Below, piece by piece: positions 19,018 through 29,337 of a stretch of DNA of 64,000 bases (within the stretch, counting starts at the first letter, position 1; each line of letters begins with the position of its first letter). The notes under the pieces are model-generated. The model saw only the letters and a program-made list of their open reading frames with translations. It was not told the DNA's origin and did not search any database. The stretch is from Salegentibacter agarivorans. Lineage in GTDB: Bacteria > Bacteroidota > Bacteroidia > Flavobacteriales > Flavobacteriaceae. Made by a program: the position numbers and the translations under genes. Location of the stretch: NCBI RefSeq assembly GCF_900113135.1, contig NZ_FOOH01000015.1, positions 1-64,000 on the forward strand. Direction: 5' to 3'.

Positions 19018-19353
19018 ATGTCTAAGACTTACTATAATCCAGATGATTTAAGAAAATTCGGCGAAATAACCGAATGGAGTGAAGAATTAGGAAATAAATT
19101 TTTTGATTACTACGGAAAAGTTTTTGAAGAAGGAGCACTTTCTGCTAGAGAAAAGTCGCTTATAGCCCTTGCGGTTTCGCACGTTGTAAAATGCCCATAT
19201 TGCATTGATGCCTATACTAAAGACGGTTTGCAAAGAGGAATCACCAAAGAAGAAATGATGGAAGCCGTACACGCCGGCGCCGCTATTGAAAGTGGAGCTA
19301 CCCTTGTACACGGGGTACAGATGATGAACAAATATGATAAATTGAGTATGTAA
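19018..19353 (+). CDS. Arsenosugar biosynthesis-associated peroxidase-like protein (CMD family)
   Basis: The 111-residue protein is a carboxymuconolactone-decarboxylase/AhpD-like protein. It has the redox pair C59 and C62 (VKCPYCIDAYT), preceded by a helix with REKSLIALAVSHV, and the AHAGAAIESGATLVHG segment lower down. This subfamily is encoded next to arsS in many bacteria. Its role in arsenosugar formation is unproven; a thiol-disulfide or arsenic-redox function is plausible. It is the first recognised gene of the operon, 66 bases before arsS. Confidence 0.87.
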   Translation: MSKTYYNPDDLRKFGEITEWSEELGNKFFDYYGKVFEEGALSAREKSLIALAVSHVVKCPYCIDAYTKDGLQRGITKEEMMEAVHAGAAIESGATLVHGVQMMNKYDKLSM

Positions 19354-19419
19354 GTTTTATACTGAAATATTTAAATACAAAATCATTTTCTTCAAATTAG
19401 CACAAAATGTAATTTTTAC

Positions 19420-20478
19420 ATGGCTTTATTAAAATCCTTATCGGCTAGAAAAAACGATCTTTCAAAACCCGAGAACCAACTTGCCTTTTTAAGCAACGGA
19501 ATTTTTAAAGAAGGAGAACTTCCTTTTTTTAAAGATAAAATTGCCAAAACCGGTAATTACCCGTTAAAACCTGAAAAACTAGAAATCCTTCAGCTTAATT
19601 TAGGTTATATGTGCAACCAGGTTTGTTCGCATTGTCACGTAGACGCCGGTCCCGATCGCAAGGAAATTATGACCAAAGAAACCATGCAGCAATGCCTGGA
19701 GGTTATTAAAACCACTAAAGCCCATACCTTAGATCTCACTGGCGGCGCACCGGAAATGAACCCGAATTTTAGATGGTTTGTAGAAGAAGCTTCTAAAGCA
19801 GGGATCAAAGATTTTATTGTTCGGTCTAACCTTACTATAATTCTGGCAAACAAAAAATACCACGACTTACCAGAATTCTTCAAAAAATATAATGTTCACG
19901 TAGTTTCCTCGCTTCCATTTTATAAAAAGGAAAAAACAGATAAACAGCGCGGAACTGGTGTTTTTGATAAATCTATCAAAGCTCTACAAATGCTTAACGC
20001 TGTGGGCTACGCACAGCCAGAAACAGAACTAAAATTGGATCTCGTATATAATCCATCAGGGGCCTTTCTACCTACCAATCAACAAGCACTGGAACAGGAT
20101 TTTAAAACCGCACTTAAAGAAGATTTCAATATAGATTTTGATAACCTTTTTGCTATTACTAATCTTCCTATAAGCAGGTTTCTGGAATTTTTGATCGCTT
20201 CAGAGAATTATGAAGATTATATGTATGCGCTTGTAGAGGCTTACAATCCCGCCGCGGTAGAGAGTGTGATGTGCACCAATACCATTTCGGTAAGTTGGGA
20301 TGGCTGGTTATACGACTGTGATTTTAATCAAATGTTAGAACTAAAAGTAGACAGCAAAGTGCAGCACATTAGCGATTACAACGAAGATTTGCTCAATAAC
20401 CGGGAAATAAGAATTTCACAACATTGTTACGGCTGTACTGCAGGTGCTGGAAGTAGCTGCCAGGGAACAGTTGCATAA
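19420..20478 (+). CDS. arsS: Arsenosugar biosynthesis radical SAM protein ArsS
   Basis: The 352-residue protein has a radical SAM cluster motif at C65, C69 and C72 (CNQVCSHC), the LDLTGGAPEMNP segment and a Cys-rich C-terminus (HCYGCTAGAGSSCQG) that may bind auxiliary iron-sulfur clusters. In cyanobacteria, ArsS transfers a 5'-deoxyadenosyl group to dimethylarsenite, yielding 5'-deoxy-5'-dimethylarsinoyl-adenosine. I infer the same here from the motif pattern and neighbours. No arsM methyltransferase is in the window, so the methylated substrate must come from elsewhere in the genome or the environment. Confidence 0.9.
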   Translation: MALLKSLSARKNDLSKPENQLAFLSNGIFKEGELPFFKDKIAKTGNYPLKPEKLEILQLNLGYMCNQVCSHCHVDAGPDRKEIMTKETMQQCLEVIKTTKAHTLDLTGGAPEMNPNFRWFVEEASKAGIKDFIVRSNLTIILANKKYHDLPEFFKKYNVHVVSSLPFYKKEKTDKQRGTGVFDKSIKALQMLNAVGYAQPETELKLDLVYNPSGAFLPTNQQALEQDFKTALKEDFNIDFDNLFAITNLPISRFLEFLIASENYEDYMYALVEAYNPAAVESVMCTNTISVSWDGWLYDCDFNQMLELKVDSKVQHISDYNEDLLNNREIRISQHCYGCTAGAGSSCQGTVA

Positions 20479-20502
20479 TTTTCACTTCTTAAATTTTAAA
20501 CT

Positions 20503-21120
20503 TTGAGCCTTAAACCTACCGAAGCTTTATTAATTATCTTTACCAGGAATCCAGAACCGGGAAAAGTAAAAACCAGGCTTGCCAAAGATGTTGGCGATAT
20601 AATTGCTTTTAAAATTTATAATTTTTTGCTGGAACACACTGTTTCAGTTACTAGAAATCTTGCAGTTGGCAAAGAAGTATATTATTCTGAAGGAATTGCC
20701 CAAAACGATATTTGGGACCCTGAGATTTATGCTAAAAAACTTCAGCAGGGAGAAGGCCTTGGAGAAAGAATGAAGAACGCCTTTGAAGAAGGCTTTAAAA
20801 ATGGCTACCAAAATATTATAATTATTGGCAGCGATCTTTACGATTTACAGCGGGAAGATCTGGAAAAAGCTTTTCAATTACTTCAGGAAAAAGATGCGGT
20901 AATTGGCCCGGCTACAGATGGCGGTTATTATTTATTGGGAATGAATCAATTGTTTCCAGAAGTATTTGAGGATAAAAAATGGGGAACCTCATCGGTTTTG
21001 GAGGATACTTTAAAGGATTTAAAAGGAAAAAATATCGGTTTGCTTGACGCCAGGAACGATGTAGATTATTATTCAGATATTAAAGATCATAAAGATTTTC
21101 AGCAATTTTTCAAAAATTAA
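20503..21120 (+). CDS. TIGR04282-type arsenosugar biosynthesis glycosyltransferase
   Basis: The 205-residue protein starts with TTG at 20503, giving MSLKPTEALLIIFTRNPEPGKVKTRL reduced to the family motif IIFTRNPEPGKVKTRLA. It continues with IIIGSDLYDL and AVIGPATDGGYYLLGM, which match the nucleotide-diphosphosugar-transferase-like family often linked to radical SAM proteins. It lies 24 bases after arsS. A role in attaching or activating the sugar part of arsenosugar is suggested by name and position; no activity has been shown that I know of. Confidence 0.85.
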   Translation: MSLKPTEALLIIFTRNPEPGKVKTRLAKDVGDIIAFKIYNFLLEHTVSVTRNLAVGKEVYYSEGIAQNDIWDPEIYAKKLQQGEGLGERMKNAFEEGFKNGYQNIIIIGSDLYDLQREDLEKAFQLLQEKDAVIGPATDGGYYLLGMNQLFPEVFEDKKWGTSSVLEDTLKDLKGKNIGLLDARNDVDYYSDIKDHKDFQQFFKN

Positions 21121-21123
21121 AAA

Positions 21124-21936
21124 ATGATTAAAGAAATACAGGAAACTACTAAATACCTGAAGGAAAAAGGATTTGAAAACCCTGAAATTGGAATAATCCT
21201 GGGCACCGGTTTAGGTCAGCTCTTAGACGAGATAAAAATAGAAATTGAGGTTAGTTACAATCATATTCCGCATTTTCCAACCGCAACGGTAGAATTCCAT
21301 AAAGGGAAATTAATTTTTGGAGAACTGGAAGGAAAAAAAGTGATGGTCATGCAGGGGCGTTTCCATATGTATGAAGGCTACACGATGCAAGATGTTACTT
21401 TTCCTGTGCGCATTATGCACCAGCTTGGTATTAAAAAACTACTTGTTTCTAATGCTTCCGGATCGGTAAATTTGAAGTTCAAAAAAGGTGAACTTATGCT
21501 AATTGACGATCATATTAATTTGCTGGGAGATTCTCCTTTAGCCTTTAAAGGAGTTTCACAAATGGGCGAACGTTTTGTGGATATGAGTGCGCCTTACGAT
21601 GCTGAAATGAATAAAGCATTTGAAATTATCGCTAAAAATGAAAGAATTACACTGCACAAAGGAGTCTACGCAGCACTTTTAGGTCCGCAATTAGAAACCC
21701 GTGCCGAATATAGAATGTTGCAGGTCTTGGGAGCAGATGCTGTGGGAATGAGTACCGTACCCGAAATTATTGTGGCCAATCATCTAAAACTACCGGTTTC
21801 GGCTATTTCTGTAATTACAGATGAAGGCGACCCAGATAACCTAGAACCGGTAAATATTAATGAAATTATTGCAATGGCCGAAAAAGCAGAACCAAATATG
21901 ATTAAGCTTTTTAAGGAAGTAATAAAATCTGTTTAA
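21124..21936 (+). CDS. Purine nucleoside phosphorylase
   Basis: This 270-residue protein is a trimeric-type (PNP I) phosphorylase. It has IGIILGTGLGQL at the N-terminus (phosphate loop), VMQGRFHMYEGY, the VSNASGSVN segment, GPQLETRAEYRM and DAVGMSTVPE. The reaction is phosphorolysis of inosine or guanosine to the free base and ribose 1-phosphate. It starts three bases after the previous gene. In this operon it may remove the adenine from the ArsS product, exposing the arsenic-bearing sugar phosphate. That is inference; adenosine is not the normal substrate of this type. Confidence 0.92.
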   Translation: MIKEIQETTKYLKEKGFENPEIGIILGTGLGQLLDEIKIEIEVSYNHIPHFPTATVEFHKGKLIFGELEGKKVMVMQGRFHMYEGYTMQDVTFPVRIMHQLGIKKLLVSNASGSVNLKFKKGELMLIDDHINLLGDSPLAFKGVSQMGERFVDMSAPYDAEMNKAFEIIAKNERITLHKGVYAALLGPQLETRAEYRMLQVLGADAVGMSTVPEIIVANHLKLPVSAISVITDEGDPDNLEPVNINEIIAMAEKAEPNMIKLFKEVIKSV

Positions 21937-22035
21937 GAACAGTTGCTTTGAACAAATTCAAAAGAAAAAATAAGAAATAATAACTTAATTTCGAAGAAGG
22001 CCCTGGAGCTTTTAAATCTCGATTATCGAGCACGT

Positions 22036-23328
22036 ATGGAACATATTGTTATTATAGGAAATGGGATTGCAGGAATTACCTGTGCGCGGCATATCAGGAA
22101 AAATTCCGATGCGAAAATTACCGTAATTTCTGCGGAAAGCGATTATTTCTTTTCCCGTACCGCATTGATGTATGTGTATATGGGGCATATGAAATGGAAT
22201 CACCTAAAACCTTATGAAGACTGGTTTTGGGAGAAAAATAGAATTGAACTAAAAAAAGCCTGGGTTGAGACCATATATTTTGAAGAAAAAACATTGCATT
22301 TTTCTTCGGATGAAACAATGAAATACGATAAGCTGGTTTTGGCAACGGGTTCAGTTTATAATAAATTTGGTTGGGAAGGACAGGATTTAGAGGGTGTGCA
22401 GGGCTTGGTTTCTAAACAGGATCTGGAGCTGCTGGAGAAAAACACCAAAAACTGTAAAAAAGCGGTAATAATTGGCGGCGGACTTATTGGCGTGGAACTC
22501 GCCGAGATGCTCAAAACCCGAAATATTGAAGTCACTTTCCTGATTCGGGAAGAAGCTTTTTGGCATAATGTATTACCAATCCAGGATGCTAAAATGATCT
22601 CGGAACATATTAAATCTCACGGTGTAGACCTTAGAGAGAAAACAGAACTGGATAAGATTGTTGCTAATGAAAATGGAAGAGTTAAATCTATAATAACAAA
22701 TTCCGGAGAAGAAATTGAATGCCAATTAGTGGGACTTTGCACCGGCGTTAAACCCAATATAGATTTTCTTAAACATTCAGCTTTAGAAACCGATAAAGGA
22801 ATTTTGGTAGATGAATTTCTACAAACCAATATCAAAGATGTTTACGCTATTGGCGATTGTTCACAATTAAAGCAGCCTTTATCTCATCGCAAACCCATTG
22901 AAGCAGTTTGGTATGCCGGCCGTATGATGGGTGAAACCCTGGCACAAACCTTAACATTAACAGGCAATGAAATACCCTACAAACCCGGAAACTGGTTTAA
23001 TTCGGCTAAATTCTTTGATATTGAATATCAAACTTACGGCAATGTTTCAGCAAAACCGGGCGATAACGAAATGCATTTTCACTGGCAGCATAAAGATAAT
23101 ACCAAAGCTATTACGATCGCCTTTGATGCAAATTCCAATAAATTCCTTGGAATAAACACCTTCGGAATTAGGATGCGTCATTCAGTTTTCGATCAATGGT
23201 TGAGCGAAAATCGAAAAATAGATCACGTTTTGGCTAATCTAAAACAAGCTAATTTCGATCCCGAATTTTATACTCATTACGAGAAAGACATTTTTAAAAG
23301 TTTTAAAGAGAATCTACAGAAAGCATGA
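22036..23328 (+). CDS. FAD-dependent pyridine-nucleotide-disulfide-type oxidoreductase
   Basis: The 430-residue flavoprotein has two Rossmann motifs: IVIIGNGIAGITCARHI (FAD, residues 3-19) and AVIIGGGLIGVELAEML (NAD(P)H, near 146-160). A further DVYAIGDCSQL segment closes the FAD site. No redox-active CxxxxC is present, so it resembles NADH:rubredoxin or nitrite-reductase-type oxidoreductases rather than disulfide reductases. It overlaps the Fe-S protein gene by four bases. The pair probably forms an NAD(P)H-driven electron chain. Confidence 0.85.
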   Translation: MEHIVIIGNGIAGITCARHIRKNSDAKITVISAESDYFFSRTALMYVYMGHMKWNHLKPYEDWFWEKNRIELKKAWVETIYFEEKTLHFSSDETMKYDKLVLATGSVYNKFGWEGQDLEGVQGLVSKQDLELLEKNTKNCKKAVIIGGGLIGVELAEMLKTRNIEVTFLIREEAFWHNVLPIQDAKMISEHIKSHGVDLREKTELDKIVANENGRVKSIITNSGEEIECQLVGLCTGVKPNIDFLKHSALETDKGILVDEFLQTNIKDVYAIGDCSQLKQPLSHRKPIEAVWYAGRMMGETLAQTLTLTGNEIPYKPGNWFNSAKFFDIEYQTYGNVSAKPGDNEMHFHWQHKDNTKAITIAFDANSNKFLGINTFGIRMRHSVFDQWLSENRKIDHVLANLKQANFDPEFYTHYEKDIFKSFKENLQKA

Positions 23329-24908
23329 GCAAAATAGAACATAACATGTCTCTCACGGCAGAAGCACCGGCAAAACTTTCTACTACGCAAAGACTAGCCA
23401 GTGGCATAGGTTTAGTTGGCCTTTTTATCTTAGTGCTTGCAGTTGCGAACGTGAATTTTCCCAATAAAACTTTATTCTTAACTTTATCTTTAGGGCTTAT
23501 CGCAGCCGGTACCATAATTTTTGCCAACGATCTCTATTTAGGAAAACACGAAGGCATAAAAAACGACGGAGTTTGGTTTAAATCGCTTAGCGGTCGCGGT
23601 TTTTGGGCCTGGATCCTTGGCATTTGCCTTACCCTTTTTTATGTGGTTTTGTATTGGTATCCACAATATTTAGGATTAAATGCTGACGGAGCCAATACCG
23701 GTATCATCTCACTTTTTGATCCATTAAGTCAATTCATTAGCGGAAATCCTGCCAGTCAATGGTTTGTTTACGGTACGCTTTACACGCTGGCAATCCTTAT
23801 TTTCGGCTATAAATTTATTCTCAAATATCGCAATAATCGCTACGAGGTAATTCGCACTTTTTCGGTGATGTTCTTTCAGTTGGGTTTCGCGTTTATACTT
23901 CCCGAAATTTTAATTCGCCTAAACCAACCTTACTATAATCCTGCCAATATATGGCCGCTTAACTACGATTTGTTTACCGATTATAAGATCAACGAATTCC
24001 TTTCGGCAGGCAATATTGGAGTTATTATGCTAGCTTTTGGTTTGATTTCCATTTTTGTAATCACTCCAATTTTAACTTATAAATACGGTAAACGTTGGTA
24101 TTGCAGCTGGGTTTGTGGCTGTGGCGGCCTCGCGGAGACCGCCGGCGATCCTTACCGCCAGCTTTCGAATAAATCACAATATGCGTGGAAAATTGAACGC
24201 TGGGTAATTCATAGCGTTTTGGTTTTTGTTACCGTAATGACCATCGCGGTTTTATACTCATTTTTAGGCGACAGTGCCAATGATTTCTGGCTTACCAAAG
24301 ATGTTTTTCTTTGGGGTGCGGCCGGATTTCTCACCTTCCTTTTTGCCGTAATTATGATTTTTAAGCGTAAAGAATTGGCGAAAGATGCTAAATATGGTGC
24401 GATTGGTTATTTAGTAGTGATTTTATCAATTATCAGTATCAATTATTTCAGCGGAAATGGGAATATCTTTTTCTTCGGCGGTTATCAACTTAGGGAATGG
24501 TACGGTTTCTTAATTGGCGCCGCATTTTCAGGAGTTATTGGCGTAGGTTTTTATCCAATTTTTGGAAGCCGAGTTTGGTGCCGTTACGGTTGCCCAATGG
24601 CGGCGATTTTAGGAATGCAGCAACGTCTTTTTTCAAGGTTTAGAATTACTACCAATGGCGGACAGTGCATTTCCTGCGGAAATTGCTCTACCTATTGCGA
24701 AATGGGAATTGATGTTCGCGCTTATGCTCAAAAAGGAGAAAATATCGTGCGCTCCAGTTGTGTTGGCTGCGGAATTTGCTCGGCAGTTTGCCCAAGAGGC
24801 GTTTTAAAACTTGAAAATGACGATATGGGCGGACGCATAAATTCTGAAGAAGTGCTGTTGGGAAATGATGTAGATCTAATGGATTTAGTAAACCAGAAAT
24901 CGAAGTAA
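23325..24908 (+). CDS. Membrane-bound 4Fe-4S protein (NapH/NosR-like)
   Basis: The 527-residue protein has several transmembrane helices, the twin motifs YCSWVCGCGG and WCRYGCPMAA typical of NapH/NosR-type membrane ferredoxins, and a C-terminal ferredoxin domain with CISCGNCSTYCEMG and CVGCGICSAVCPRG. Two [4Fe-4S] clusters are predicted. Such proteins move electrons across or along the membrane from quinol or a flavoprotein. It overlaps the FAD oxidoreductase gene by ATGA and is followed by GT2 with no gap. The acceptor is unknown. Confidence 0.85.
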   Translation: MSKIEHNMSLTAEAPAKLSTTQRLASGIGLVGLFILVLAVANVNFPNKTLFLTLSLGLIAAGTIIFANDLYLGKHEGIKNDGVWFKSLSGRGFWAWILGICLTLFYVVLYWYPQYLGLNADGANTGIISLFDPLSQFISGNPASQWFVYGTLYTLAILIFGYKFILKYRNNRYEVIRTFSVMFFQLGFAFILPEILIRLNQPYYNPANIWPLNYDLFTDYKINEFLSAGNIGVIMLAFGLISIFVITPILTYKYGKRWYCSWVCGCGGLAETAGDPYRQLSNKSQYAWKIERWVIHSVLVFVTVMTIAVLYSFLGDSANDFWLTKDVFLWGAAGFLTFLFAVIMIFKRKELAKDAKYGAIGYLVVILSIISINYFSGNGNIFFFGGYQLREWYGFLIGAAFSGVIGVGFYPIFGSRVWCRYGCPMAAILGMQQRLFSRFRITTNGGQCISCGNCSTYCEMGIDVRAYAQKGENIVRSSCVGCGICSAVCPRGVLKLENDDMGGRINSEEVLLGNDVDLMDLVNQKSK

Positions 24909-25694
24909 ATGCCGCAAAAAAATCAGGAATCAGAGAGTAAAACCCCGACCAATGATTCAGAAAAATATTCTGCTAATGATAAAAAATTTCATGATATAAA
25001 AACCTCTGTAGGGATTAAGGTTATTATTCCGGCTTATAACGAAGAAGAGTCCATAGCTAAAGTCATTGCAGAAATTCCTGAAATTGTTCAGGAAATAATT
25101 GTAGTAAGCAACAATTCTACTGATGCTACCGAAGAAAATGCTAAAAACGCCGGTGCCACGGTACTACAGGAGAAGCAAAAAGGTTACGGCTATGCCTGTT
25201 TAAAGGGAATGGATTATATTTCAAAACAAGAAAACCAACCCGATATTATTGTTTTCCTCGATGGCGATTACAGCGATTTCCCGGGCGAATTAACTAAAAT
25301 TGTGGCCCCAATTATTAAGGAAAATAAAGACGTTGTTATTGGCTCCAGGGTAAGAAGATGGCGGGAAAAAGGTTCAATGACCTTTCCGCAGATATTTGGA
25401 AACTGGCTGGCCACTTCGCTAATGAAATTATTTTTCAATGCCCACTTTACCGATCTGGGTCCTTTTAGAGCCATCAAATACAATAAGTTGCTTCAACTTG
25501 AAATGCAGGACAAAACTTACGGCTGGACGGTAGAAATGCAATTAAAAGCCTTAAAAAAAGGATTTTCTTACACTGAAGTTCCCGTACATTACAAAAACAG
25601 GATTGGCACTTCTAAAGTTTCGGGAACTTTGAAAGGTTCTATCTTTGCAGGAGTAAAAATCCTGGGTTGGATCTTTAAATATAGTTTTAAGTAA
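24909..25694 (+). CDS. Glycosyltransferase family 2, dolichol-phosphate-mannose-synthase type
   Basis: The 261-residue protein starts with a charged 35-residue leader, followed by a GT-A fold: VIIPAYNEEESIAKVI, a DxD-like VFLDGDYSDFPGE (about 115-127), and VIGSRVRRW. These match polyprenyl-phosphate glycosyltransferases of the DPM1 type. No transmembrane helix is seen. It starts on the base after the Fe-S gene stops and overlaps the next GT2 by one base. It may load a sugar on a lipid carrier for the polytopic enzymes downstream. Confidence 0.85.
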   Translation: MPQKNQESESKTPTNDSEKYSANDKKFHDIKTSVGIKVIIPAYNEEESIAKVIAEIPEIVQEIIVVSNNSTDATEENAKNAGATVLQEKQKGYGYACLKGMDYISKQENQPDIIVFLDGDYSDFPGELTKIVAPIIKENKDVVIGSRVRRWREKGSMTFPQIFGNWLATSLMKLFFNAHFTDLGPFRAIKYNKLLQLEMQDKTYGWTVEMQLKALKKGFSYTEVPVHYKNRIGTSKVSGTLKGSIFAGVKILGWIFKYSFK

Positions 25695-27160
25695 TGGATT
25701 TAGCCATTATCATTATATACACGCTTGCCCTGCTGCTTATTTTCTTCTATAGTATCTCGCAGTTGCATTTGTTATTGAATTACCTGAAAGCCAAAAAACA
25801 GATAGATGCTTCGGAAAAATTTGATTTAAAAAATCCTGCGGAAACACCTTTCGTCACTATCCAGCTCCCACTCTACAACGAACTTTATGTAGTGGAACGT
25901 TTGCTGAAAAATATTGCGAAAATTGATTATCCTCGTGAAAAATTAGAGATCCAGGTTTTAGACGATTCCACCGATGAATCAGTTGAGAAAATTAAAACCC
26001 TGGTAGAGCAACTTCAAACAACCGGACTCGACATCCAACATATTACCCGAAAAGACCGAAGCGGATTTAAAGCCGGTGCTTTAAAAGAAGGTTTAAAAAT
26101 CGCAAAAGGAGAATTTATCGCGATTTTTGATTCCGATTTTATGCCTAAAAAAGATTGGTTGCTACAAACAGTGCCATATTTCAAAGATCCTGAAATTGGG
26201 GTGGTGCAAACTCGGTGGGGACATATTAATCGGGACTATTCCTTGCTCACAAAAATTCAGGCTTTTGCTTTAGATTTTCATTTTATCCTGGAACAAACCG
26301 GAAGGAATTTTGGACGGCATTTTATCAACTTTAACGGGACAGCAGGAATATGGAGGAAGGAATGCATTTTAGACGCGGGAAATTGGAGCGGAGACACCTT
26401 AACCGAAGACCTTGACTTAAGTTACCGCGCACAGCTTAAGAACTGGAAATTTAAGTACCTGGAAGATGTGGAAACTCCAGCCGAATTGCCAGTGGCGATA
26501 AGCGCGGCGCGTTCGCAACAATTTCGCTGGAATAAAGGTGCTGCAGAGAATTTTAAAAAAAACTTCAAGAAGTTACTTAAAGACAAATCGGTACCTTTTG
26601 GCACTAAGTTTCACGCATTCTTCCATCTTCTAAATTCCAGTATGTTTTTAATCATCCTGGTGTTGGCGGTTTTAAGTATTCCGGTATTATTTATTAAAAA
26701 CAACAATCCGCAGTTTGGCTGGTATTTTAATTTGGTGGCTTTCTTTTTAGTAAGTACCGTGATTTTCTTTCTTTGTTATTACGCGGCTTATGTGAAGATT
26801 CACGGAAAAAGCTTTAAAAGCTTTTTGAAGTTTATAGGCATGTTTTTTACTTTCTTTTCGGTAGCGATGGGATTTTCGGTTCATAATTCCCTGGCGGTTT
26901 TGGAAGGTCATCTGGGGAAAAAATCGGCTTTTATTAGAACTCCAAAATTCAATGTAAGTTCCCTAAACGATTCCTGGAAAAAGAATATTTATATTCAGCA
27001 GAAATTTTCCTTAAGCATTGGGGTTGAATTTGCTTTATGGCTGTATTTTGGTTTCGGACTCTATAGCGCTTTTATGCTGAACGATTTTAGCCTCGCCATT
27101 TTCCACTTGATGCTGTTTATAGGCTTTGGGTTTGTTGTTTTTAGATCGGTTAGGGTTTAA
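25694..27160 (+). CDS. Membrane glycosyltransferase family 2 (cellulose-synthase-like)
   Basis: The 488-residue protein has an N-terminal helix, a processive-type GT2 domain (VTIQLPLYNE, VLDDSTDES, FIAIFDSDFMPKKDW, NFNGTAGIWR, TLTEDLDLSYR, and QQFRWNKG as the QxxRW signature, about residue 270-280) and four or more C-terminal transmembrane helices. The signature set is complete, so it should be active. Homologues act as beta-glucosyl or ceramide-type transferases; the acceptor here is unknown. It is directly coupled to the preceding GT2. Confidence 0.87.
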   Translation: MDLAIIIIYTLALLLIFFYSISQLHLLLNYLKAKKQIDASEKFDLKNPAETPFVTIQLPLYNELYVVERLLKNIAKIDYPREKLEIQVLDDSTDESVEKIKTLVEQLQTTGLDIQHITRKDRSGFKAGALKEGLKIAKGEFIAIFDSDFMPKKDWLLQTVPYFKDPEIGVVQTRWGHINRDYSLLTKIQAFALDFHFILEQTGRNFGRHFINFNGTAGIWRKECILDAGNWSGDTLTEDLDLSYRAQLKNWKFKYLEDVETPAELPVAISAARSQQFRWNKGAAENFKKNFKKLLKDKSVPFGTKFHAFFHLLNSSMFLIILVLAVLSIPVLFIKNNNPQFGWYFNLVAFFLVSTVIFFLCYYAAYVKIHGKSFKSFLKFIGMFFTFFSVAMGFSVHNSLAVLEGHLGKKSAFIRTPKFNVSSLNDSWKKNIYIQQKFSLSIGVEFALWLYFGFGLYSAFMLNDFSLAIFHLMLFIGFGFVVFRSVRV

Positions 27161-27176
27161 ATTCAGGCTTGTTACC

Positions 27177-27254
27177 GTCGTCACCCTGAATTTATTTCAG
27201 GGTCTAAGAAGTGGATCAGTTCATGTTAGATCCTGAAACGAATTCAGGATGACG
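27177..27254. repeat. REP-like double-hairpin element
   Basis: Two hairpins face each other as inverted copies of one unit. The left has stem ACCCTGAA / TTCAGGGT at 27183-27203; the right has ATCCTGAA / TTCAGGAT at 27230-27250. Outer sequences CGTCA and TCTAA are inverted between the halves as well. The second base pair is C:G on the left and T:A on the right, a compensatory change that keeps both stems. It has no gene. Confidence 0.8.
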
Positions 27255-27278
27255 AAGTATATATATGGATACAAATAG

Positions 27279-27307
27279 ACCTCACAGGTTTTAAAAACCT
27301 GTGAGGT
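27279..27307. repeat. Palindromic interspersed repeat (CCTCACAGG family), copy 2
   Basis: Perfect 14-bp arms (ACCTCACAGGTTTT / AAAACCTGTGAGGT) flank a single central A. It is the same family as 9676-9702. The right arm contains the first possible GTG start of the next gene. Confidence 0.85.
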
Positions 27308-28740
27308 TTCAATCAAAAATTGTGTTAGATTTCCTTAAAAATCATAAGTTTTCCTTTCTCCTAATCTTAACAGGAATTGCTTTTTATTGGTCTTTCGCTT
27401 ACGATCTAAACCGCACTGATTTCACAAAACTGATCAGTCTTTATACCGGTTTATTTTTTATCAGTTTTAAGCTTCTTCAATTAGAAAAAAACAATTTCTG
27501 GTTGTTAGCTGGAATTGCAGTTTTATTCCGACTCGTTTTTATTGTGGCCACGCCAAACCTTTCGCAAGATTTTTACCGTTTTATCTGGGATGGAAAATTG
27601 ATTCTGGACGGAATAAATCCTTATTTATCGGTGCCGAATGATTTAAAAGAGATTTCAACTTCTCTCGAATTCACACAGCAAAAACTAATACAGGGAATGG
27701 GAAGTTTAAGTGCGGGAAACTACACCAGTTATCCGCCGGTAAATCAACTGCTGTTTGCAATTTCAGCATTTTTAGGAGGAAAGAGTATTTTGGGTTCTGT
27801 GATCACGATGCGATTTTTTCTCATTTTAGCCGATCTGGGCACGCTATATTTCGGCCGAAAATTACTGCTGAAATTAAAACTACCCACTCACAAGGTCTTC
27901 TGGTTTATTTTGAATCCTTTTATAATCATAGAACTCACCGGAAATCTTCATTTTGAAGGCGCAATGCTGTTCTTCTTAACCTGGTCTATTTATTTATTAC
28001 ATCAGAAAAAATGGATTTGGAGTGCGGTACTACTTGGAATATCAGTTTCGGTAAAATTGTTGCCACTATTGTTCTTACCGCTTTTATGGAATTATTTCTT
28101 AAAGAAAAGAAACTTTAAAAACCTACCCGACAATGCACTGATTAGAAACAAAATAAGACAAGTTAGGGAGCTAAATTCTCAGCAGTTATTGATATATTAT
28201 CTAATTGCGGGAACCACTATTTTAATTAGTTTTCTACCTTTTCTTTCTTCGAAATTTATCTCCAATTTTTCAGCAAGTATTGCGCTATGGTTTCAGAAAT
28301 TCGAGTTTAATGCGGGTATTTATTATATAATTAGATGGATTGGATTTCAGCTAAAAGGCTACAATATTATTGGCACAGCCGGGAAAATCCTACCTCTAAT
28401 TGTAATTTTAATTCTAGCAGGACTGGCCTTTTTCAGAAGAAATAATTCAACCCAAAAGCTAATTGGCACTATGCTGCTGGGAGTCTCGGTTTACTTTTTT
28501 CTTTCAACAACCGTACATCCCTGGTATATTGCCACCCCACTTTTGCTTTCGGTTTTTACCAAATTCAGGTTTGCACTGGTATGGTCGTTTTTGGTAATGC
28601 TAAGTTATTCGGCTTATACCATTAACGGATTCCAGGAAAATTACTGGTTAATTGCGGTTGAATATATTCTTGTTATAGGAATCTTCCTAATAGAAATTTT
28701 TAAACCGAAATTACTCACCAGACTTCCGTATTATAAATAA
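27301..28740 (+). CDS. Polytopic GT-C/mannosyltransferase-like membrane protein
   Basis: The protein of up to 479 residues has about ten hydrophobic helices and a periplasmic motif SQDFYRFIWDGKLILDGINPY, typical of lipid-linked-sugar-dependent mannosyltransferases; the aspartates there are likely catalytic. No ATG precedes the first helix: the start is GTG at 27301, inside a palindromic repeat, or more probably GTG at 27322. A charged loop lies near 265-290. Its 3' end overlaps a convergent LAB_N gene by 30 bases. It would use a polyprenyl-phosphate sugar made by a GT2 upstream. Confidence 0.75.
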   Translation: MRFQSKIVLDFLKNHKFSFLLILTGIAFYWSFAYDLNRTDFTKLISLYTGLFFISFKLLQLEKNNFWLLAGIAVLFRLVFIVATPNLSQDFYRFIWDGKLILDGINPYLSVPNDLKEISTSLEFTQQKLIQGMGSLSAGNYTSYPPVNQLLFAISAFLGGKSILGSVITMRFFLILADLGTLYFGRKLLLKLKLPTHKVFWFILNPFIIIELTGNLHFEGAMLFFLTWSIYLLHQKKWIWSAVLLGISVSVKLLPLLFLPLLWNYFLKKRNFKNLPDNALIRNKIRQVRELNSQQLLIYYLIAGTTILISFLPFLSSKFISNFSASIALWFQKFEFNAGIYYIIRWIGFQLKGYNIIGTAGKILPLIVILILAGLAFFRRNNSTQKLIGTMLLGVSVYFFLSTTVHPWYIATPLLLSVFTKFRFALVWSFLVMLSYSAYTINGFQENYWLIAVEYILVIGIFLIEIFKPKLLTRLPYYK

Positions 28741-29067
28741 ATTCCTAATATAAACAATTCCCCCAAAAAAGTGGGCGGCAATTAAAACCGGGTCATCCCG
28801 AAAAATGCCGTAAGTAAAAATAAGAATTGATCCCACGAGGCTTATAATCCAGAATTTAAGCGGTAAATCTGACTCCTGGTTTCTTTCGGCATGAATCCAT
28901 TGATAAATAAAACGCGCAGTATAAATAAGTTGCCCCACAATTCCAAGAGCAATAAGCCATATAGAAATATTGTCGCCTTTAATAAGATCTTCCCAGTCTA
29001 ACTGCCCAAATAAGCCGATATATAATGCGATTAGAATTGGCAAAACAATGACATAAACCTTGAACAT
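28711..29067 (-). CDS. Orphan lipid-A-disaccharide-synthase N-terminal domain (LAB_N) membrane protein, long copy
   Basis: The 118-residue protein has three to four transmembrane helices and the LAB_N signature: GQLIYTARFIYQWIHAE, then P-x-x-FWIISLVGS and a FRDDP segment ending in YIRNL. In LpxB this domain precedes the synthase; here it stands alone and has no catalytic domain. Orphan LAB_N proteins are often found with polyprenyl-phosphate glycosyltransferases and resemble small flippase-like proteins. It lies 15 bases after the short copy on the same strand. Confidence 0.82.
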   Translation of the reverse strand: MFKVYVIVLPILIALYIGLFGQLDWEDLIKGDNISIWLIALGIVGQLIYTARFIYQWIHAERNQESDLPLKFWIISLVGSILIFTYGIFRDDPVLIAAHFFGGIVYIRNLFIIRKSGE

Positions 29068-29082
29068 TATGCCAGATTCTCC

Positions 29083-29337
29083 TCATTTACCCTGTAACTG
29101 AAGGTTTCTAAAATAACCGCCATACACCAGGAATTGTCCTAGCATAATAGCCATATCGTCTCGAAGATACCCGTAGATAAAAAGTAAAACAGCACCCTGC
29201 AGGCTCAGCTTCCAAAATAGCGTTGGTGTTTCAATTTTTTTGTTTTTCTCTGATTTTATCCACTGCATTATTAATCTTGCAGAAAATAAAAGCTGGGCTA
29301 AAAAACCAATGGCATATACTATCCAACTACTACTCAT
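29083..29337 (-). CDS. Orphan LAB_N membrane protein, short copy
   Basis: The 84-residue protein has three hydrophobic helices and the same signature as its neighbour (AQLLFSARLIMQWIKSE, then FWKLSLQGA and YFRNL). It is first in a two-gene minus-strand unit. The two may act as a heterodimer, as small multidrug-resistance or ArnEF-type proteins do; that is inference from size and pairing. Confidence 0.8.
   Translation of the reverse strand: MSSSWIVYAIGFLAQLLFSARLIMQWIKSEKNKKIETPTLFWKLSLQGAVLLFIYGYLRDDMAIMLGQFLVYGGYFRNLQLQGK

Follow-up and report, generated by a model that had tools for sequence, protein, structure and literature searches.

A candidate ArsM-less variant of the Flavobacteriaceae arsenosugar-type locus in Salegentibacter agarivorans, with a linked redox pair that may prepare methylarsenic for ArsS

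We analyzed a 64,000-nt window of the Salegentibacter agarivorans genome (positions 1 to 64,000 of NZ_FOOH01000015.1, contig C14; the genome is 4.3 Mb and listed as 100% complete), in which a run of genes is built around arsS. The genes for a CMD protein, ArsS, a TIGR04282 transferase-like protein, purine nucleoside phosphorylase (PNP), a FAD oxidoreductase (FADox), a NapH-like membrane polyferredoxin, and DPM-like and CESA-like glycosyltransferases (GTs) all point in the same direction and are followed by a repeat block and a gene for a GT-C-like protein (GTC) (Table 1). From CMD to CESA, the gaps in the table of open reading frames (ORFs) are 66, 24, 3, 99, -4, 0, and -1 bp, which is an operon-like spacing. 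Every gene named in the initial annotation was found in its place by ORF table and profile matches, and the arsenosugar-type core proposed there holds. CMD, ArsS, TIGR04282, and PNP all exceed curated cut-offs. Three of the five NCBIfam arsenosugar families (TIGR04167, TIGR04169, TIGR04282, TIGR04283, and NF038099) are thus over cut-off here, represented by ArsS, CMD, and the TIGR04282 protein; TIGR04283 is absent at the locus and NF038099, an ArsM family, from the genome, whereas relatives have both. A profile search limited to the locus assigned no gene of the run to TIGR04283 (the DPM-like protein reached 40.6 bits, cut-off 182), and from FADox onward no named arsenosugar family was over cut-off. 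It is an evenly balanced proposition, and the one we favor, that this is a compact, ArsM-less variant of the arsenosugar-type locus of the Flavobacteriaceae in which the redox pair FADox-NapH would prepare methylarsenic for ArsS.

Table 1. Features of the arsS gene run and their positions in the window
Feature	Position	Strand	Basis
CMD/AhpD-like protein, arsenosugar-associated family TIGR04169	19018..19353	+	199.7 bits, cut-off 120
ArsS, radical SAM enzyme TIGR04167 with DUF3641 C-terminal domain	19420..20478	+	447.9 bits, cut-off 300
TIGR04282/DUF2064 transferase-like protein, TTG start listed	20503..21120	+	215.5 bits, cut-off 134
PNP	21124..21936	+	TIGR01700, 299.3 bits, cut-off 293
Site of arsM in congener G031 (L062:7377-8342); here 99 bp, no recognisable remnant	21937..22035		comparison with L062
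FADox, Pyr_redox_2 flavoprotein (184 bits), Thr42 as in ferredoxin-reductase-type relatives	22036..23328	+	Pfam match, alignment
NapH-like membrane polyferredoxin, partner of FADox	23325..24908	+	Fer4_5 and Fer4_9 matches
DPM/AglJ-like GT2, linked, role unproven	24909..25694	+	119.3 bits to TIGR04182, cut-off 325
CESA-like processive GT2, linked, occurs without ArsS too	25694..27160	+	below cut-off of nearest named family
Repeat block (two palindromes, one 14-nt inverted repeat) separating the CESA and GT-C genes	27161..27307		repeat search
GT-C-like (GT87/mannosyltransferase-like) membrane protein, true start uncertain	27301..28740	+	51.5 bits to TIGR03459, cut-off 439

In the congener G031, arsM lies exactly between the PNP and FADox genes; a search of the corresponding 99 bp of the window for an arsM remnant returned just 9- to 10-nt chance matches. 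A search of the S. agarivorans genome found no ArsM: all candidates lay below the cut-offs, the best scoring 46.2 bits against NF008823 (cut-off, 263) and, in tblastn, 28.6 bits, and NF038099 had no match at an E value of 1e-8. This best candidate proved to be MenG/UbiE. The step that supplies dimethylarsenic (DMA), which is that of ArsM going by the title of a cited paper, is therefore missing from this genome. Among 15 genomes of the genus, NF038099 was over cut-off in 3 and without a match at 1e-8 in 10 (one of them 61% complete); G435 and G437 have 99-bit matches below the cut-off, possibly to canonical ArsM. ArsS is present in 14 of the 15, the exception being the 61% complete genome. In a family sample of 199 genomes, nearly all of different genera, ArsS was over cut-off in 148, and 32 of these are without NF038099. 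On a 73-row ArsS tree (a quick, single-gene tree with one very long branch, G002), NF038099 changed state 10 times, with 6 changes forced by well-supported branches.

The genes of the run are under purifying selection. Ratios of nonsynonymous to synonymous substitution rates (dN/dS; NG86, pairs with dS below 3) come from comparisons of the window with as many as eight congeners in which NF038099 did not reach its cut-off, among them G437 with its 99-bit match. The medians were 0.016 for CMD, 0.026 for ArsS, 0.037 for CESA, 0.040 for NapH, 0.053 for PNP, 0.061 for FADox, 0.097 for GTC, 0.10 for DPM, and 0.13 for TIGR04282, with 0.026 and 0.032 for the housekeeping yardsticks DHS and SpeB. The ArsS value indicates that ArsS is in use without that ArsM.

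For the neighborhood of arsS, 60 of the 148 family loci were fetched, hand-picked in favor of high-ranking matches on long contigs, and their genes were clustered. Between -5 and +13 kb of arsS, CMD occurs in 59 of the 60 loci, TIGR04282 in 54 (weak matches included), PNP in 49, FADox in 23, NapH in 20, DPM in 16, CESA in 13, and GTC in 6; the upstream neighbors of the window, AraC and DASS, occur in only 3 and 2. The association of genes around arsS is more than chance. The usual family cluster comprises CMD, ArsS, a rhodanese, TIGR04282, PNP, ArsM (NF038099), DUF547, and TIGR04283, often with a fatty-acid-hydroxylase-like protein (in the 60 loci plus the window, we counted 39 rhodanese, 42 ArsM, and 36 TIGR04283), and in many loci FADox, NapH, DPM, CESA, and GT-C follow it. 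A second family layout (L052, L058, L086, and similar loci) has CMD-ArsS beside a glycosyltransferase-9 and PurD block, with ArsM and FADox hundreds of kb or a contig away. The 1.8-Mb genome G178 has two separate arsenosugar-type clusters (L123 and L124), and neither shares its ArsS, ArsM, or FADox with the other.

PNP, which the initial annotation had free a sugar phosphate, was observed beside ArsS in family loci only; in the ArsS loci fetched from other families it stood there in 0 of 12. Asp233 of PNP, at a base-specificity position where Asp favors adenosine in human PNP, was tried as an arsenic marker and rejected. It occurs in 122 of 123 aligned PNPs (the other has a gap; Glu191 is in 123 of 123), yet all 33 PNPs from loci with no ArsS in view have Asp as well, as do the solved PNPs 4lna, 8swt, and 4m1e, so that the residue is no mark of arsenic use.

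FADox co-occurs with ArsS across the family, being present in 135 of 148 ArsS-positive and 7 of 51 ArsS-negative genomes. Sorted by ArsS, ArsM, and FADox, the 199 genomes comprise 111 with all three, 24 with ArsS and FADox, 5 with ArsS and ArsM, 8 with ArsS only, 7 with FADox only, and 44 with none; ArsM, found in 116, always occurs together with ArsS. Same-contig pairs were within 25 kb in 87 of 109 cases for ArsS-FADox, 95 of 101 for ArsM-FADox, and 93 of 105 for ArsS-ArsM, while 26, 10, and 11 pairs, respectively, were split between contigs. Among the best 80 of 562 confirmed FADox matches, the named loci centered on FADox had, within 10 kb, NapH in 80, DPM in 67, CESA in 67, GH113 in 66, TIGR04283 in 59, GT-C in 52, PNP in 46, TIGR04282 in 43, ArsM in 32, ArsS in 26, and DHS in 26. 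The closest named FADox among these 80 is that of S. lacus (89% identity). ArsS and NapH of the window are 91% and 94% identical to their S. lacus counterparts, and TIGR04282 and PNP only 56% and 79% (20503-21936 versus L133:8475-9991), as if the latter two genes had been exchanged.

The features of FADox and NapH point to an electron transfer function. FADox Thr42, an invariant alignment column, aligns with the Cys of NoxA-3 (6pfz) and of 3cgb that we take to be catalytic. Ferredoxin reductases and CoA-disulfide reductases are among the solved relatives of FADox, and the N-terminal motif Cys of the CoA-disulfide reductase/NADH oxidase type is replaced by Thr42. All 11 NapH sequences compared, including 5 that come from other families, keep the membrane cysteine motifs and two ferredoxin-type motifs. 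Like the NapH/MauN ferredoxins of TIGR02163, the window protein has membrane Fe-S motifs and two 4Fe-4S ferredoxin motifs; unlike them, it is paired with a flavoprotein, and it scores 46.5 bits, below the TIGR02163 cut-off of 213. On a plain reading, electrons would flow from NAD(P)H through FADox to the membrane Fe-S protein. The run is broken off behind NapH in the genus mates G031, G436, and G445, which leaves FADox-NapH together with ArsS.

Linkage extends beyond the family. A phylum sample of 247 genomes had ArsS in 104 and FADox in 49; the 220 genomes from other families comprise 21 with both, 70 with ArsS only, 13 with FADox only, and 116 with neither. In L213, the order is FADox-NapH-CMD-ArsS-DPM, and in L214, L215, and L216 (three genomes of one other family) it is CMD-ArsS-TIGR04282-FADox-NapH, with TIGR04282 and NapH of L214 confirmed by tblastn; these four loci were picked for gene closeness and serve as existence proofs, not rates. 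In G342, FADox-NapH adjoin ArsM (L223), and the ArsS run (L222) holds DPM, a TIGR04283/TIGR04282 fusion, DUF547, a TIGR04282-like gene, CMD, and ArsS. G282 (L224) has the order DUF547-FADox-NapH-CESA-DPM-GTC. That the gene order varies among these loci speaks against synteny alone in the case of FADox-NapH and, with less force, in that of DPM. The claim of the initial annotation that the run goes beyond the ArsM-ArsS steps is upheld, and the outcome that it named as refuting, later genes unlinked from arsS in relatives, did not arise.

Where the redox pair is missing, a different gene is found. Twelve of the 13 ArsS-positive, FADox-negative family genomes carry a MerT-like membrane protein of 134 to 154 amino acids with a CC pair, and the assembly of the 13th (G062) is broken at the corresponding position. 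In 11 of the 12, the gene lies directly before DPM, in the slot of FADox-NapH; in G095, it adjoins TIGR04283, with no DPM in view. G052, which has neither ArsS nor FADox, also carries a MerT-like protein, and the CC pair is invariant in 13 of 13. Among 267 fetched loci (several per genome in places, so that the counts cover loci and not whole genomes), the protein occurs in 0 of 147 FADox-bearing loci, and six further loci whose GT genes lie apart from a FADox located elsewhere in the genome (L096, L247, L264-L267) lack it as well. Similarity to MerT (PF02411) was 15.4 to 17.3 bits in 4 of 4 scanned proteins, below the gathering score of 32.9, and like FADox and NapH the protein matches no NCBIfam arsenosugar family over cut-off. 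The swap between FADox and the MerT-like gene required 8 changes, 4 of them forced, on a quick ArsS tree of 86 rows (84 labelled) with several long branches.

In the reading that we favor, dimethylarsenic would be taken from the surroundings instead of being made by the cell. FADox, as an NAD(P)H flavoprotein, would feed the membrane polyferredoxin, and pentavalent methylarsenic would be reduced at the membrane; alternatively, the pair might supply electrons to ArsS. ArsS would then place a 5'-deoxyadenosyl group on trivalent arsenic, PNP and the transferase would exchange adenine, and the product would be passed on, possibly to the linked GTs. In genomes of the MerT-like type, the trivalent arsenical would come from the small dithiol protein rather than from the redox pair.

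A number of observations weigh against this scheme. The co-occurrence counts are raw and ignore the kinship of the genomes, and outside the family the enrichment is weak, FADox being present in 21 of 91 ArsS-positive and 13 of 129 ArsS-negative genomes (odds ratio, 2.7; p 0.013). ArsS and FADox are within 5 kb in only 4 of the 21 non-family genomes with both, 8 of the 12 ArsS loci fetched from other families have neither FADox-NapH nor a MerT-like protein, and the ArsS of a Hymenobacter plasmid has no membrane or flavoprotein module within 6 kb. In 12 genomes, ArsS is more than 370 kb from ArsM on one contig and FADox within 25 kb of ArsM, a pattern also to be expected from plain synteny; FADox is far from ArsS in G014 and G087. 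FADox persists in seven family genomes that have neither ArsS nor ArsM. Of the seven, G104 (L120) and G184 (L119) keep FADox-NapH together with the rhodanese, TIGR04282, PNP, DUF547, TIGR04283, and DPM-CESA-GTC, so that the backbone can serve something else. L250, from the ArsS- and ArsM-less G052, holds TIGR04282, DUF547, the MerT-like gene, and DPM-CESA-GTC. Judging from the gene content of L119, L120, and L250, part of the backbone may have an arsenic-free role.

In an alternative account, the genes are held together by neighborhood only, with CMD-ArsS-TIGR04282-PNP as one pathway and FADox-NapH-DPM-CESA-GTC as a separate surface-glycan or glycolipid pathway kept adjacent by slow rearrangement. 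We consider this account possible, albeit rather unlikely. It would explain why FADox-NapH survive in the seven ArsS-less genomes mostly with DPM-CESA-GTC, why the GT trio is nearer to ArsS than FADox is in G014 and G087, and why CESA occurs in 16 of 51 ArsS-negative genomes, without DPM or GTC in the 18-kb stretches seen in five that also lack FADox (G023, G043, G094, G117, and G196). DHS-SpeB-SpeA and the glycoside hydrolase GH113 are, moreover, conserved neighbors in the FADox-centered loci above, the former with no arsenic claim. Against it, FADox is missing from 44 of 51 ArsS-negative genomes, FADox-NapH adjoin ArsS or ArsM in rearranged order in other families, and FADox remains near ArsS when the GT trio leaves (G031, G110, G159, and G179; the DPM-CESA-GTC genes of G031 are next to SpeA-SpeB-DHS on a different contig).

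The GT genes also bear on the proposal of the initial annotation that the product of the run is an arsenosugar, either lipid-linked or exported, which DPM, CESA, and GT-C would process. CESA is present in 144 of 148 ArsS-positive genomes and, at a dN/dS of 0.037, is as constrained as the core; DPM adjoins ArsS in L213 and is part of the L222 cluster around ArsS, two loci that belong to two other families; and L124 has the compact form TIGR04282-PNP-ArsM-DUF547-TIGR04283-FADox-NapH-DPM-CESA-GTC. Same-contig pairs were within 10 kb in 121 of 124 cases for FADox-CESA and within 25 kb in 78 of 106 for ArsS-CESA. An exported arsenolipid may be inferred as a product from such linkage, but the full scheme appears improbable to us in view of CESA without ArsS, the unlinking of the GT trio from ArsS in several ArsS-positive genomes, and the weaker constraint on DPM and GTC than on ArsS, CMD, PNP, FADox, and NapH, although not than on TIGR04282. 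The linkage part of the proposal stands, and the occurrence of CESA alone in ArsS-less genomes speaks against the product. Since the GT trio is separable and CESA occurs alone, FADox-NapH are the firmer extension of the core, DPM and GTC intermediate, and CESA the weakest.

That ArsS of ArsM-less genomes instead acts on inorganic arsenite, another thiol-binding element, or a sulfur or selenium compound is hardly probable: it would fit a constrained ArsS in the absence of NF038099 and the 21 of the 32 ArsS-positive genomes without NF038099 that also lack canonical ArsM (NF008823) over cut-off (5 of the 21 are less than 90% complete), but the window ArsS bears no mark of change, keeping all 8 cysteines that are invariant in 73 of 73 sequences and differing in no column conserved in at least 97% of them, and 11 of the 32 have canonical ArsM over cut-off instead, suggesting a continued demand for methylated arsenic.

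Arsenosugar steps catalyzed by ArsM and ArsS in Synechocystis were reportedly described by Xue 2017, Xue 2019, and Cheng 2021. Such work is cited in PMC12159101 and PMC8552651, and according to PMC12159101 a radical SAM enzyme, named as ArsS in a cited title, adenosylates arsenic in oxo-arsenosugar synthesis. The window resembles this system, as represented in those sources, in its TIGR04167 ArsS with all conserved cysteines and differs from it in the lack of an ArsM found in the genome and in the extra FADox-NapH and GT genes. Plasmids offer a further parallel. A Pseudanabaena galeata plasmid with ArsS has TVP38 and a MerA-like protein beside ArsM, and in an Acinetobacter portensis plasmid typed as mobilizable (L281) ArsS adjoins a TVP38/TMEM64-FAD-oxidoreductase fusion; DUF547, TIGR04283, TIGR04282, and a methyltransferase are also found by ArsS in L281. 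These loci share with the window a membrane protein and a flavin oxidoreductase, but the flavoprotein is of the MerA/lipoamide dehydrogenase type and the membrane protein of another family. Besides these two and the Hymenobacter plasmid, a fourth stretch was looked at, which carried no annotation. The plasmid search had no match for the MerT-like protein (1e-3) or the NapH-like protein (1e-30), and no TVP38- or MerA-like module was obvious among the few neighbors inspected by eye in ArsS loci of other Bacteroidota families. Among the literature matches listed (titles and abstract openings), none tied the NapH-like/FAD pair or the MerT-like protein to ArsS.

At the downstream end of the run, the CESA and GT-C genes are 140 bp apart, and in this gap the palindrome CCTGAATTNNTTTCAGG occurs twice, the two copies being mutually inverted; with up to 2 mismatches allowed, the rest of the window has no further copy (0.29 expected by chance). 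A perfect 14-nt inverted repeat at 27279-27307 encloses the GTG at 27301 that is listed as the start codon of the GT-C gene. The two LAB_N genes (both matching PF07578) that the initial annotation had counted with the run are outside it: both are minus-strand genes that converge with the GT-C gene, and DHS-SpeB-SpeA lie beyond them.

A broader view, compatible with the comparisons of gene content but in our judgment doubtful, is that FADox-NapH and the MerT-like protein could be unrelated, interchangeable modules delivering trivalent methylarsenic to ArsS, and that ArsM-less bacteria might use the methylated arsenic of their neighbors, with arsenosugar synthesis as a shared, community-level pathway. 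To our knowledge, no step beyond ArsS is established in the synthesis of arsenosugars and arsenolipids. The linked redox pair is a candidate for a missing component of this synthesis, for which a small CC-motif membrane protein stands in in some genomes. In a genus that keeps ArsS without the usual ArsM, the role of FADox-NapH and the action of ArsS on scavenged methylarsenic become testable questions.

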